Shown piece after piece: positions 1-59,083 of a stretch of 64,000 nt of DNA (its first letter is position 1; each line of letters opens with the position of its first letter). The notes under the pieces are model-generated. The model was not told where the DNA came from and made no database searches. It was given only the letters and a program-made list of their open reading frames with translations. Source of the DNA: Candidatus Gastranaerophilales bacterium (GTDB lineage Bacteria > Cyanobacteriota > Vampirovibrionia > Gastranaerophilales > Gastranaerophilaceae). The stretch lies in the NCBI GenBank assembly GCA_944323285.1, contig CALURV010000008.1:62001-126000 (forward strand), written 5' to 3'. The position numbers and the translations under genes are program-made.

Positions 1-500
1 ATATAATTCCTGATTATATGTCAGTAGCTGAACTTAAATATATTTTAGCAAGCCTTATAAAAGAAAAGGTTTCCATTAAAGATATCGTTTATATATTTGA
101 AAAAATAAATGATTTTGCAGATGAAACAAATAAAGAAGAACTGCTTGAAAGAATAAGAATTTCTCTTGCAAGACAAATAAGTAAATCATTGATTAATGAA
201 ACAGATAAAACAATTTATGCCTATGAACTATCAGAAAAAAGCATTGAATCTTTTATTGGCGAAAAAGCAAATGATGAAATTATCAGAATTGAAAGCAACA
301 AAATTGAAGAAATAATTAAATTAATAAAAGAAAAAGTAAATAAATATGCTCCAGACTCAAAAGAAATAGTTTTAATTGCACCAATGAAAATAAGGCATTT
401 AATTTATTTAATTTTATCTCAAATGCTCCCTAATATAAGGGTTGTTGCAAGAGAAGAATTAATATTTGAATATCCTCTGCAAATTGTTTGTTCAATTTAA
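1..500 (+). CDS. flhA: FlhA-family export gate protein, C-terminal part (5' end outside window)
   Basis: The frame is open from the window edge (codon phase begins at base 3) and reads IIPDYMSVAELKYILASLIK, so the ATG at base 18 is internal. The visible ~165 residues match the cytoplasmic C-terminal domain of FlhA/SctV: the SVAELKYIL...VSIKDIVYIFEKINDFA block, the ISLARQISKSL segment, a PDSKEIVLIAPMKIRHLIY strand-helix and the terminal QIVCSI, which resembles the family ending. FlhA forms the inner-membrane export gate of flagellar type III secretion and its cytoplasmic ring docks substrates. I cannot tell a flagellar from a non-flagellar secretion paralogue from this part alone. The stop codon lies directly against a degenerate copy of the dispersed repeat family. 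Confidence 0.8.
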   Translation, partial: IIPDYMSVAELKYILASLIKEKVSIKDIVYIFEKINDFADETNKEELLERIRISLARQISKSLINETDKTIYAYELSEKSIESFIGEKANDEIIRIESNKIEEIIKLIKEKVNKYAPDSKEIVLIAPMKIRHLIYLILSQMLPNIRVVAREELIFEYPLQIVCSI

Positions 501-620
501 TCAAGTATTACACTTGATTTCTATACTGATACAAGCTCGTTCAAAATAATGTTTTGGTTTCATCTTACAAAAATTCCATCACACTTTCAGCTTATTGTGA
601 ATTTTTCACCGATAAAATAA
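497..620 (+). repeat. Dispersed two-hairpin repeat, copy 1 (degenerate long form)
   Basis: This is the most diverged long copy. It starts at the flhA stop (taatcaagtattacacttg, compare taatctagtatcgcacttt in other copies), keeps the middle insert (ctgatacaagctcgttcaaa) and ends with the cagcttattgtgaattttt hairpin arm. It lies between convergent genes. Confidence 0.65.
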
Positions 621-4014: not shown

Positions 4015-4078
4015 ATTAACTCTCTCCAAACGGCATTTTAGCATACTGAATTTTTTTAAGCAAAATTATAAGAACATA

Positions 4079-4161
4079 TTTAATCTAGTATCGCTCTTTG
4101 TTAGCGAGGATGACTCGGTAACAAAGTACTCACCTTTTGAAAACGCCTCTCGAAAAAATTA
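4079..4161 (+). repeat. Dispersed two-hairpin repeat, copy 2 (first hairpin inverted, second missing)
   Basis: Flanks match other copies (ctagtatcgct before, tactcaccttttgaaaacg after), but the hairpin between them reads gttagcgaggatgactcgg, the reverse complement of the usual ccgagtcatcctcgctaac. The copy stops at cgaaaaaatt, so the terminal hairpin is absent. It lies between divergent ugd and the 4237 gene. Confidence 0.85.
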
Positions 4162-28753: not shown

Positions 28754-28763
28754 CATGATAAAT

Positions 28764-28887
28764 TAATCTAGTATCCCAATTTTGTTATCGAGTCATCCTC
28801 GCTAACAAAGTACTCTCCTTTTGAAAACGCCACTTAAAAAAATTCACTCACTCTTTCAGCTTATGGTTAATTTTTTATTGGACATAT
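28764..28887 (+). repeat. Dispersed two-hairpin repeat, copy 3 (short form)
   Basis: Starts ttaatctagtatccc, includes the tcgagtcatcctcgctaaca hairpin in the usual orientation, tactctccttttgaaaacgc, and ends with the aattcactcactctttcagc arm and a mutated ggttaattttttattggaca. It lies between the tRNA and the divergent 28954 gene. Confidence 0.85.
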
Positions 28888-42216: not shown

Positions 42217-42220
42217 ATTT

Positions 42221-42400
42221 TATCTAATATCGCACTTTGTTACCTTATCATCTAACTAACAAAGTACTCACCTTTTGAAAACTCGGCTTTACTTCGTTTC
42301 ACTAGGGATACAAGCTCTCTCAAAAACAAAATTTTGGGGTTGTTTTGTAAAAAAATTCACTCATACCTTCAGCTTATAGTGAATTTTTTTCGGACAAATT
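42221..42400 (+). repeat. Dispersed two-hairpin repeat, copy 4 (long form)
   Basis: Contains the ctttgtta...taacaaag hairpin with a different loop (ccttatcatctaac), the tactcaccttttgaaaac spacer, the ~60-base insert (gctttacttcgtttcactag onward), and the aaaaaattcac...gtgaattttttt hairpin ending cggacaaatt. It lies between the convergent 40796 and 42400 genes and may double as terminator. Confidence 0.88.
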
Positions 42401-42690: not shown

Positions 42691-42867
42691 AAACATTCTC
42701 CTTTTATTTTAATAACATAAAGAGAAAAAGAAATTTTTATTGTTAAAATTTTTTTAATTATTACAAAATATTAAAATATCACTCAAAAATTGAGTTAATT
42801 TGGCAGCAATGAATACTCGCAACCAAAACGTAATAATAGATTAAATTATCTTTTCATTAATATATTT

Positions 42868-43045
42868 GTCTAGTATCGCACTTTGTTACCTTATCATCTC
42901 TCTGACAAAGTATTCACCTTTTAAAGACTCTGTTCTCCTTCGTTTCACTAAGGATACAATCTCATTCAAAAACATAGTTTTTAATTCGTTTTGTAAAAAA
43001 ATTCACTCACTCTTTCAGCTTATCGTGAGTTTTTTCTCAGACAAA
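42868..43045 (+). repeat. Dispersed two-hairpin repeat, copy 5 (long form)
   Basis: Same layout as copy 4: ctagtatcgcactttgttac, ttatcatctctctgacaaag, insert with cttcgtttcactaaggatac, and terminal hairpin with actctttcagcttatcgtga ending ctcagacaaaa. It fills most of the 362-base gap between two leftward genes (42697-43058), where I see no gene. Confidence 0.88.
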
Positions 43046-48869: not shown

Positions 48870-49613
48870 TTATTTTCCAAATCTTCTTTGTCTTTGATTG
48901 AAATTTAAAATGGCATCAGCTAATGCATTTTTATCGAAATCGGGCCAAAATATATCTGTTACATAAATTTCAGTATATGCAAGCTGCCATAATAAATAAT
49001 TACTTATTCTTTTTTCTCCACCTGTTCTTATTAATAAAGCAGGATCAGGAATTTCAGATGTATAAAGATTATCAGAAATCGTTTTTTCTGTAATTTCTTC
49101 AGGATTTAAAACTCCATCTTTAACTTTTTTTGCTATTTCTTTAACAGCACTTGCAATCTCCGTTCTGGAGCCGTAATTAAAAGCAATTTGAAGATTTAAT
49201 GTTTTATTATTCTTCGTTTCTTCTTCTCCATATTTTATAACTTTAATTAAATCATCATTTAAAGAGGCTCTATTTCCAATAAAGCTTAACTTAATATCAT
49301 TAGCTTGAAATTCAGGAACTTCATTAACAATGGTTTTTACAAGTAAAGACATTAAAAAATCTACTTCTTCTTTTTCTCTGTTCCAATTTTCGGTAGAAAA
49401 AGCATAAACAGTTAAATATTTTATACCAAAAGATACACAAGCTTTTAAAGTAGTTCTTAATGCTTCAACACCTTTTTTATGACCTGCAGCAGAAGGTAAA
49501 AATTTATTTTTCGCCCAGCGTCTGTTACCATCCATTATTATGGCAACATGCTGCAAATTTGCTTCATTAACAATTTGTTTTATTTCTTGTACATCCGTTA
49601 ATGTTTTTAACAT
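48870..49613 (-). CDS. uppS: Isoprenyl transferase (undecaprenyl diphosphate synthase family)
   Basis: Makes the C55 lipid carrier used for peptidoglycan and for the polysaccharide pathway at 6-18 kb. Motifs: HVAIIMDGNRRWAKNKF, HKKGVEALRTTLKAC, YAFSTENWNREKEEV, FNYGSRTEI and LLIRTGGEKRISNYLLWQL. Ends RQRRFGK as usual. 247 aa. aagaga precedes the ATG. Forms a two-gene unit with rdgB. Confidence 0.94.
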   Translation of the reverse strand: MLKTLTDVQEIKQIVNEANLQHVAIIMDGNRRWAKNKFLPSAAGHKKGVEALRTTLKACVSFGIKYLTVYAFSTENWNREKEEVDFLMSLLVKTIVNEVPEFQANDIKLSFIGNRASLNDDLIKVIKYGEEETKNNKTLNLQIAFNYGSRTEIASAVKEIAKKVKDGVLNPEEITEKTISDNLYTSEIPDPALLIRTGGEKRISNYLLWQLAYTEIYVTDIFWPDFDKNALADAILNFNQRQRRFGK

Positions 49614-49712
49614 ATATTTTCTCTTTACTTATTATTTATCCACAAAGAACTTACTTATTATATTCAAAGAAAATTATAAAACAAAAAACCAAAAATAACA
49701 GTTTTATATTTT

Positions 49713-49839
49713 AATTTGTCCGAGAAAAAATTCACGACAAGCTGAAAGTATGAGTGAATTTTTTCGAGTGACGTTTTTAAAAGGTGAGTACTTTGTTAGC
49801 GAGGATGACTCGGTAACAAAGTGCGATACTAGATTAAAT
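49713..49839 (-). repeat. Dispersed two-hairpin repeat, copy 6 (short form, reverse orientation)
   Basis: The only copy in reverse orientation: begins tttgtccgagaaaaaattca, contains the terminal hairpin, then aaaaggtgagtactttgtta, the first hairpin and gtgcgatactagattaaat. It lies between divergent uppS and gyrA; the rest of 49614-49949 holds the gyrA promoter and no gene. Confidence 0.9.
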
Positions 49840-49854
49840 ATTATATTAAAAAAT

Positions 49855-49882
49855 TTGCTCAAATACTTGTTTGTGTTACAAT
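49855..49882 (+). promoter_or_regulatory. Promoter of gyrA
   Basis: TTGCTC (49855-49860), 16-base spacer, TACAAT (49877-49882), about 60 bases before the TTG start. It lies 15 bases past repeat copy 6. Confidence 0.55.
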
Positions 49883-49949
49883 ATAAGTATCATAAACCAG
49901 TATTTGTGAGAGAGAAAATAATAAATAATTTTATAAAGGGGTAGAAGTT

Positions 49950-52493
49950 TTGAGCCAAAAGAATTTTTTTGAAGACGGAAAAATTGTTCCAGTAAATATT
50001 CGTGAACAAATGAAACAATGTTATATAGATTATGCTATGTCCGTAATTATAGGAAGAGCACTTCCTGATGTACGTGACGGTTTAAAACCCGTACATAGAC
50101 GCATTCTGTTTGCAATGAATGAACTTGGTATGACTCCTGATAAACCATTTAAAAAGTGTGCAAGAATCGTAGGTGAAGTATTAGGTAAATATCATCCGCA
50201 CGGTGATACTGCCGTATATGAATCATTAGTAAGAATGGCTCAAGACTTTTCAACAAGATATTTAACAGTAGACGGGCACGGTAACTTCGGAAGCGTTGAC
50301 GGTGACGGTGCTGCTGCGATGAGGTATACAGAAGCCAGAATGCATAAAATAACAACCTCTATGCTTGCTGATATTGATTGTGAAACTGTTGATTTTGTAC
50401 CAAACTTTGACGGTTCATTAGAAGAACCTTCTGTTCTTCCGGTAAGACTTCCTATGCTTTTATTAAATGGAGTTTCCGGTATAGCAGTCGGTATGGCTAC
50501 AAACATTCCGCCTCACAACTTATGTGAAATAGTAGATGGAACAATTGCTTTAATTGATAATCCAAATCTTACAATAGAAGAATTAATGCATCATGTAAAA
50601 GGTCCTGATTTCCCAACAGGTGCAAGCATTATTGGTGTTTCTGAAATCAAAAAAGCATATACAACAGGCAGAGGTTCTATAAAAATGTCTGCAATTTCTA
50701 CATTTGAAGAACTTCCCGCAAGTGCAGGCCGTCAATCAAGGACAGCAATTGTTGTTACAGAAATTCCATACCAAGTAAACAAAGCTGTTCTTATTACAAA
50801 AATAGCAGAACTTGTTCGTGATAAAAAAATAGACGGCATTTCTGATATAAGAGATGAATCTGACAGAGATGGTATGCGTATTGTTATTGAACTTAAACGT
50901 GATGCAAAACCTGAAGTTGTTAAAAATAACTTATATAAATATACCCAATTAACAGCAACTTTTGGTGTAAACATGTTAGCTTTAGTAGGGCAGCAGCCTC
51001 GATTAATGAATTTACTTGAAGTACTTAATGAATTCATTGAACACAGAGTTGAAATTATTACAAGAAGAACTTTATTCTTCCTGAAAAAAGCTAAAATGAG
51101 AGCTCATATTTTAGAAGGCTTATTAATTGCTTTAGCCAGCCTTGATGATGTAATAGAACTTATAAAAAAATCTAAAACAGCAGATGAAGCAAGAATAGGT
51201 TTAATGTCTAAATTCGGACTTGATGTTGATCAAGCTAATGCTATTCTTGAAATGCAATTAAGACGTTTAACAGGCTTAGAACAAGATAAAATTAAAGCAG
51301 AATATGAAGAGTTAAAACGCAAAATTCAAGAATATGAAGAATTATTATCAGATAGAACTAAAGTTTTAGCTGTAATTAAAACAGAGCTTCTTGAAGATAA
51401 AGAAAAATATGGAGATGACAGAAAAACTCAAATACTTCCTGAAGCAGATGAAATGACAATAGAAGATTTAACTCCAAATATTCCAATGGCAGTATTTATA
51501 ACAAGACAAGGATATATTAAACGTATTTCATTGGATGTATTTGAACGTCAAAATCGTGCTACACGAGGAAAAGGCGGAATAAAAACAAAAGAAGATGATG
51601 ATGTAGGACATTTCTTTACTGCAATGATGCATGATAAAGTGTTGTTCTTCTCTAATAAAGGAACTGTTTACAGCTTAAATGTTTATGACTTTCCTGAAGG
51701 TTCAAGACAAGCAAAAGGATTACCAATAATAAACGTATTACCTTTAGCACAAGATGAAAAAATTACAGCAGTTGTACCTGTTTCAAATTTTGATCCGAAC
51801 TCAAATTTAATAATGTTAACAAAAAAAGGTTACATTAAGAGAATAGGTCTTGATAATTTTGCAAATATCAGAAAGAACGGAATTATCGCAATAGGACTAG
51901 AAGAAGGCGATACTCTTAACTGGGTAAAACAAGCAAACAACACTGATGAAGTATTTATAGCAACAAGCTGCGGTATGGCAATAAGATTTGCTATTGATGA
52001 TTTAAGACCTTTAGGTAGAAGTGCTAGAGGTGTAAACTCAATGAAATTAAGAACTGCAGATACTATAATAGGCTGCGATATTATACCTAGAAACTTTGAT
52101 GCTGATTTACTTGTTGTAACTTCCGATGGTTTTGGTAAACGTTCAAAGATGTCTGAATTTAGAGCTCAAAATAGAGGCGGCATAGGTCTGATTGCAACAA
52201 AATTTAAAACAGCTTCTTCAAGATTAGTAGCACTTACCGTTGTTGAGGAAAATGATGAAATAATGGTTGTAACACAAAACGGAATTGTTTCAAGAATAAA
52301 AGCTTCTGATGTTTCAAGACAGGGAAGACCTGCAACAGGTGTAAGAATACAGAACTTAATGGAAAATGATTCAGTAATGGCCGTTAACAAAATCGTAAGT
52401 ACAGAAACAAATGATTCATATAGTGAAGAAGCTATGAATGAAAAAGTTGAAGAATCAATACAAAACCGATTAGGAGATTTTGGCAATGAATAA
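49950..52493 (+). CDS. gyrA: DNA gyrase subunit A
   Basis: Type II topoisomerase breakage-reunion subunit (847 aa). The winged-helix core has [20 protein letters not shown], the catalytic tyrosine Tyr126 in [10 protein letters not shown], and the [23 protein letters not shown]. The positions equivalent to E. coli Ser83 and Asp87 are Thr87 and Glu91. The C-terminal beta-pinwheel carries the GyrA-box-like [14 protein letters not shown]. Start is TTG (49950), eight bases from aaagggg. gyrB is not adjacent. It overlaps ridA by 8 bases. Confidence 0.95.
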
Positions 52494-56343: not shown

Positions 56344-56470
56344 TATTTAATCTAGTATTGCACTTTGTTACCGAGTCATCTTCGCTAACAAAGTACTCAC
56401 CTTTTAAAAACGCCACTCGAAAAAATTCACTCACACTTTCAGCTTATCGTGAATTTTTTCTCGGACATAT
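56344..56470 (+). repeat. Dispersed two-hairpin repeat, copy 7 (short form)
   Basis: Near-identical to the reverse complement of copy 6: atttaatctagtattgcact, first hairpin ccgagtcatcttcgctaac, then ttttaaaaacgccactcg and the 12-bp perfect arms gaaaaaattcac/gtgaattttttc, ending tcggacatatt. It lies between divergent ade and the 56596 gene. Confidence 0.9.
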
Positions 56471-58928: not shown

Positions 58929-59012
58929 TATTCATCTTTTAAAAACATAGTTTTGTTCATTTTATAAAGAAAATTAACTCACTCTTTCTATTTATCGTGG
59001 ATTTCTTCTTTA
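58929..59012 (+). repeat. Dispersed two-hairpin repeat, copy 8 (degenerate 3' part)
   Basis: Aligns with the second half of copy 5: ttaaaaacatagttttgttc, attttataaagaaaattaac, tcactctttctatttatcgtg. The first hairpin is missing and the terminal hairpin is decayed. Confidence 0.6.
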
Positions 59013-59083
59013 ACAATCTTGATATTTTTTAATTAATTATTTTTACCTATATACAAGAAAAAAAACTAACTTATAATAAAAAT

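Follow-up and report, generated by a model that had tools for sequence, protein, structure and literature searches.

Short, dispersed, intergenic and noncoding repeats that carry hairpins and reach about 100 copies are known as REP/BIME, ERIC and BOX-type repeats. In chloroplast DNA, minute hairpin-associated inversions are found, in which the loop enclosed by short inverted repeats is reversed in place, a change that recurs. Quasipalindrome-associated template-switch mutation in Escherichia coli reportedly leads to the one-sided correction of mismatched arms, as shown experimentally. Inversion of the spacer between inverted repeats in Saccharomyces cerevisiae has been attributed to intermolecular template switching, and the yeast genes document both products, inversion and correction (PMC8604942). 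Loop inversions in rRNA hairpins, including those of Actinobacteria and Firmicutes, have likewise been ascribed to template-switch mutations, with the bacterial rRNAs documenting loop inversion alone (PMC8794818).

The window analyzed here, a stretch of 64,000 nucleotides, belongs to a 1.86-Mb draft genome in 36 contigs (G000), whose relatives in the genome collection are MAGs of Candidatus Gastranaerophilales. It holds seven copies (Table 1) of a noncoding element that starts with ATTTAATCTAG, ends with CTCGGACA and has two hairpins, one near each end; the element exists in a short form of about 123 bp and a long form of about 180 bp. About 106 copies of the element were detected by search in G000 and 93 in the genome of a sister species (MAG CALVED01, a single record that appears as both G019 and G028). 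Each of the two sister species thus has about 100 copies of the family in its genome, and the other members of the genus that were tested contain traces only. Positions 58973-59015 of the window are a probable relic of the second hairpin alone (10 mismatches in 43 positions).

Table 1. Copies of the repeat in the 64-kb window and the parts of copy 2
Feature	Position	Strand	Details
Copy 1, degenerate	495..615	+	Left end 495-520, second hairpin 573-615
Copy 2, 3'-truncated	4078..4158	+	Element start ATTTAATCTAG, hairpin 1, then TACTCACCTTTTGAAAACGCC; truncated insertion shared with the sister at the orthologous site
Copy 2, left outer arm	4096..4103	+	CTTTGTTA
Copy 2, inverted interior	4104..4118	+	GCGAGGATGACTCGG; CCGAGTCATCCTCGC, normal orientation, at the orthologous site
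Copy 2, parts of interior	4104; 4105-4108 and 4114-4117; 4109-4113; 4118		Mismatch G; inner stem; loop GATGA; mismatch G
Copy 2, right outer arm	4119..4126	+	TAACAAAG
Copy 3	28761..28884	+	Interior TCGAGTCATCCTCGC, normal orientation
Copy 4, long form	42217..42397	+	14-nt interior CCTTATCATCTAAC, normal orientation
Copy 5, long form	42863..43043	+	14-nt interior CCTTATCATCTCTC, normal orientation
Copy 6, short form	49717..49839	-	Between uppS and gyrA; interior CCGAGTCATCCTCGC, normal orientation
Copy 7, short form	56345..56467	+	Interior CCGAGTCATCTTCGC, normal orientation, second hairpin intact

Read from position 4078, copy 2 consists of ATTTAATCTAGTATCGCT-CTTTGTTA-GCGAGGATGACTCGG-TAACAAAG-TACTCACCTTTTG, with hairpin 1 at positions 4096-4126. 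The preliminary description of this DNA stated that the 15-base interior of this hairpin, GCGAGGATGACTCGG, is the exact reverse complement of the interior of copy 6 (CCGAGTCATCCTCGC; minus strand, 49791-49821), and direct reading confirmed this: the arms and flanks of copy 2 have the normal orientation of the family, and the interior alone is reversed. The interiors that it gave for copies 3, 6 and 7 in element orientation (TCGAGTCATCCTCGC, CCGAGTCATCCTCGC and CCGAGTCATCTTCGC) were also found as stated. None of 100 shuffles reproduced the match between copies 2 and 6, a result that, together with the counts of loop orientation given below, rules out chance as the source of the inverted interior. 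The arms are inverted repeats, as had been described; however, the length of 14 near-perfect bases assigned to them takes in part of what was called the interior, and the true outer arms of copy 2 are 8 bp long. These outer arms pair perfectly over 8 bp in copy 2 and over 9 bp in most copies; inside them lie a G·G mismatch in copy 2 (normally C·C), a 4-bp inner stem and a 5-nt loop, and pairing in copy 2 occurs at 12 of 13 positions. The two orientations of hairpin 1 differ at 7 bases only, five in the loop (TCATC or GATGA) and two in the mismatch (C·C or G·G). As single-stranded DNA, the hairpin folds far better than shuffled sequences (z -8.9).

The stretches around the copies were rescored with a more tolerant profile, and 107 entries from G000 and 96 from the sister were aligned; the tallies omit L106, both ends of which are left ends, which has no orientation and which had been counted once per strand. 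Copy 2 had been presented as the only flipped copy, with the proposal that orientation be counted over all genomic copies. That count showed hairpin 1 to be flipped in 9 of the 104 callable copies in G000 (~9%; one of the nine is degraded) and in 16, versus 77 normal, in the sister (16/93, ~17%), so copy 2 is one flipped copy among many. In both genomes together, 162 copies have a loop that differs from TCATC by at most one base and 22 have one that differs from GATGA by at most one, and no copy comes this close to the plain reverse or the plain complement of TCATC; these counts show inversion, not drift. When the interior was masked, the flipped fraction among the nearest neighbors of flipped copies was 0.087, versus an expected 0.108 (P = 0.59). 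This absence of clustering requires many separate flips, and the clonal spread of a flipped subfamily gained no support. Variants from different subfamilies, for example, GCGACGATGAGACGA, are represented among the flipped interiors. Flips may favor hairpins with longer or more perfect arms, as the inner stem is intact in 19 of the 25 flipped copies versus 90 of the 168 others (Fisher P = 0.05; odds ratio, 2.7).

Evidence for when copy 2 was turned came from its orthologous sites. The 2 kb around it was searched over 41 genomes of the genus, most of which have the orthologous gene region, and the intergenic stretch was aligned in six genomes; five of these lack the element, and the sister has it at the same site between the same two genes. 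Copy 2 and the sister copy have in common a private T (GCT before CTTT, where the family has GCA) and a 3' truncation that ends shortly past AAAACGCC. The interior of the sister copy is CCGAGTCATCCTCGC, in normal orientation. Since the same insertion is present in the sister in normal orientation, copy 2 was turned in place after it had inserted. The flip took place on one of two branches, at about the time when the two species separated or later, and, because most of the family has the normal orientation, the branch to G000 is the most likely one. A second orthologous pair, e67 in G000 and e110 in the sister, which adjoins another orthologous element pair, differs in orientation at both hairpins; its orthology is based on synteny, together with sequence evidence that is weaker. 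About 15 other pairs with two orthologous flanks are concordant in orientation. In one sister copy, L185, the hairpin has been lost through deletion; deletion is another classic outcome at hairpins.

The second hairpin of the element, with arms AAAAAATTCAC and GTGAATTTTTT that are unrelated to those of hairpin 1 and an 18-nt interior, TCACACTTTCAGCTTATC, also flips. It is inverted in 13 copies, 5 in G000 and 8 in the sister, several of them with 0 or 1 mismatch. Flips at two unrelated hairpins indicate a process governed by structure rather than by a recombination site. Furthermore, the arms of hairpin 1 bear traces of one-sided correction. Among copies with a normal loop and C at interior position 15, 24 have a base other than C at position 1; in 13 of these 24, the base is G, a change that restores a pair by converting the C·C mismatch to G·C. 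The C mutation spectrum of the element itself predicts a G share of 5%, so the change is ~10 times more common than expected (P = 1.7e-11, an approximate value since the copies are related). Mixed states, in which the loop and only one mismatch base are flipped, are also present, for example, CCGAGGATGACTCGG. The left side accounts for nearly all corrections (13 changes of C1 to G versus one of C15 to G), an excess that would be accounted for only if the direction of replication or transcription, or inheritance among copies, matters; some of the one-sided forms may be inherited and not separate events.

Based on these data, we consider it very probable that the flip in copy 2 arose by template switching at the quasi-palindrome of hairpin 1, within a high-copy-number, noncoding, two-hairpin mobile repeat. 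It can be envisioned that during DNA synthesis the nascent strand would stall in one arm of the hairpin, switch templates, using the complementary (sister) strand in the other arm, copy the loop in the opposite direction and then switch back; the loop and the mismatch would thereby be reverse complemented, and the sequence outside the arms would be unchanged. Template switching predicts both loop inversion and one-sided mismatch correction, and the presence of both supports it. The spacer of copy 2 is an exact reverse complement with arms and flanks kept, as in the footprint of spacer inversion by template switching; in addition, the change was made in place, arms are homogenized and a hairpin suffices without any particular sequence. 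The preliminary description had named a replication-associated flip as one possible origin, and this suggestion gains support: the change in place relative to the sister, the scattered recurrence, the flips of the second hairpin and the one-sided corrections make up a template-switch signature. The evidence for such an event consists of footprints in the sequence and not of the event itself, and we infer that polymerase template switching was the agent, rather than nuclease action or recombination on an extruded cruciform. The same trace would follow from a switch to another copy of the element as an ectopic template. Most likely, the flip has no function of its own.

Other origins of the inverted interior were weighed against the same observations. 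The preliminary description had raised the possibility of a recombinase-driven switch; such a device would be phase variable and regulatory, with site-specific recombination between the arms turning the 15-bp segment. The exact inversion of a segment that sits between inverted arms agrees with such a switch, as does the location of copy 2 between two divergently oriented genes; however, these genes encode a UDP-glucose dehydrogenase and a metallophosphoesterase, and no recombinase gene was found among the flanking genes checked at this locus. Arms of 8 to 9 bp and a segment of 15 bp are far below the size of known invertons, and a promoter would not fit; the 15 bp contain nothing to switch. 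The flipping sites have no common recombinase recognition sequence, the arms of the two hairpins being unrelated; the flipped copies are scattered; and the frequent one-sided partial states would not be produced by clean strand exchange. A recombinase-driven switch is therefore highly improbable. The mobile subelement that had also been suggested is at odds with the empty sites described below, where the whole repeat of 123 to 180 bp inserts with precise ends.

An extruded cruciform that was nicked or resolved and then religated with the hairpin reversed, without replication, would be consistent with the strong hairpin potential and with flips at both hairpins, but it would not by itself give one-sided arm correction, and we regard this route as very improbable also. 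Somewhat less remote, but still unlikely, is ectopic gene conversion, in which another copy of the repeat, paired in the opposite direction through the palindromic arms, overwrote the interior. About 100 near-identical donors are available per genome, and at several orthologous sites (for example, e25/e198 and e76/e150) the body of the element diverges far more than its flanks, as would follow from exchange between copies; however, no flipped copy was found with a patch that requires a specific donor, and copy 2 retains its private GCT beside the arm, so that a conversion tract would have to end at the arm on that side. Conversion of this kind may partly overlap with template switching. Artifactual assembly is the least credible of these explanations and can be considered extremely improbable. 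The genome is in draft form (36 contigs), and the orientation is known from the assembly alone, but the hairpin, at 31 bp, is below short-read length, flips recur across many copies and are also present in a second MAG, assembled independently, and the flipped copies have distinct interior variants. The preliminary description had allowed for all other copies being fixed in one orientation and copy 2 being an assembly error; instead, flipped copies make up ~9% and ~17% in two separately assembled MAGs.

The mutational process proposed here is already known; the repeat family that carries the hairpins is apparently undescribed, and a search of the literature on repeats of the order Gastranaerophilales found nothing relevant. 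Against Rfam at the gathering threshold, the window yielded a tRNA only, with no match to the element, and three element loci gave only subthreshold miRNA or sRNA matches, all outside the element. An exact empty site (L024 versus L264) shows that insertion is precise, with neither duplication nor deletion of the target; L060, both L070 copies, L101/L185 and L029/L118 provide additional empty or near-empty sites. A statistical test for target duplication gave no clear signal, and the ends ATTTAATCTAG and CTCGGACA are not terminal inverted repeats; these two results argue against a DDE-type MITE. Precise insertion without target duplication and hairpins near both ends are traits of REP/RAYT or IS200/IS605-like elements; however, no Y1 transposase (PF01797) was found in G000 or the sister, and a Y1/RAYT mobilizer was rejected. 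A search of viral contigs for the hairpin pattern gave no exact match, and viral carriage was rejected on that basis.

Several additional observations concern the insertion and history of the repeat. Insertions lie in or beside terminator-like hairpins in 15 of 174 left flanks versus 0 of 174 control segments ~300 nt away, which is no more than a hint, the control segments being mostly coding; examples are the L024/L264 junction, L060 and L122/L083. At e25/e198, e33/e37 and e76/e150, the flanks are near identical and the element bodies are clearly different, including short versus long forms, which alternate at the e76/e150 site; this divergence suggests exchange between copies or replacement. 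In the regions between uppS and gyrA (window positions 49600-49960 versus L183) and at L087 versus L108, the sister species have elements in opposite orientations. Inversion of the whole element was rejected at both sites since the element positions differ slightly, and these are probably independent insertions into the same intergenic regions. In L106, near positions 1545-1620, the left end ATTTAATCTAGTATCGCACTTTGTTA is followed by 15 nt and then by its reverse complement, forming a palindrome with 26-bp arms; this structure is possibly the result of a longer template switch.

Flipping might instead be tied to the life cycle of this apparently undescribed element, which lacks terminal inverted repeats, target duplication and a Y1 enzyme and may move by a single-strand route; each round of movement could then turn a hairpin. 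Flipped copies occupy sites where the sister has no element (L024, L060 and both copies in L070), and movement-linked flipping is thus allowed; however, copy 2 was flipped in place, so movement is not required for a flip, and we consider such a link unlikely. The main value of the repeat lies in the number of its replicate hairpins, about 200 in two sister genomes, and not in one flipped copy. It offers a natural assay of the frequency of loop inversion and arm correction in an uncultured bacterial lineage. It also counsels against treating small inverted segments within repeats as phase-variable switches without an orthologous-site test.

The element resembles the REP/BIME, ERIC and BOX repeats in its general features, and it differs from REP/RAYT systems in that the RAYT-type transposase is missing from both element-rich genomes. 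Unlike the minute inversions of chloroplasts, which occur in single-copy organelle spacers, its flips occur in a dispersed bacterial repeat. One-sided correction is shared with the quasipalindrome mutations of E. coli, where it is experimental, whereas for the present repeat it is deduced from sequence. The S. cerevisiae system is alike in the exact inversion of the spacer, the retention of the arms, their homogenization by the same process and its recurrence in several lineages, but it concerns single-copy coding loci in yeast and not ~200 hairpins of a dispersed bacterial repeat (PMC8604942). Likewise, the rRNA hairpins bear the same footprint in bacteria, an inverted loop on an intact stem; there, however, such inversions are rare (69 loop-only cases) and bound by rRNA function, whereas in this repeat they reach ~9 to 17% of copies and are apparently unconstrained (PMC8794818).
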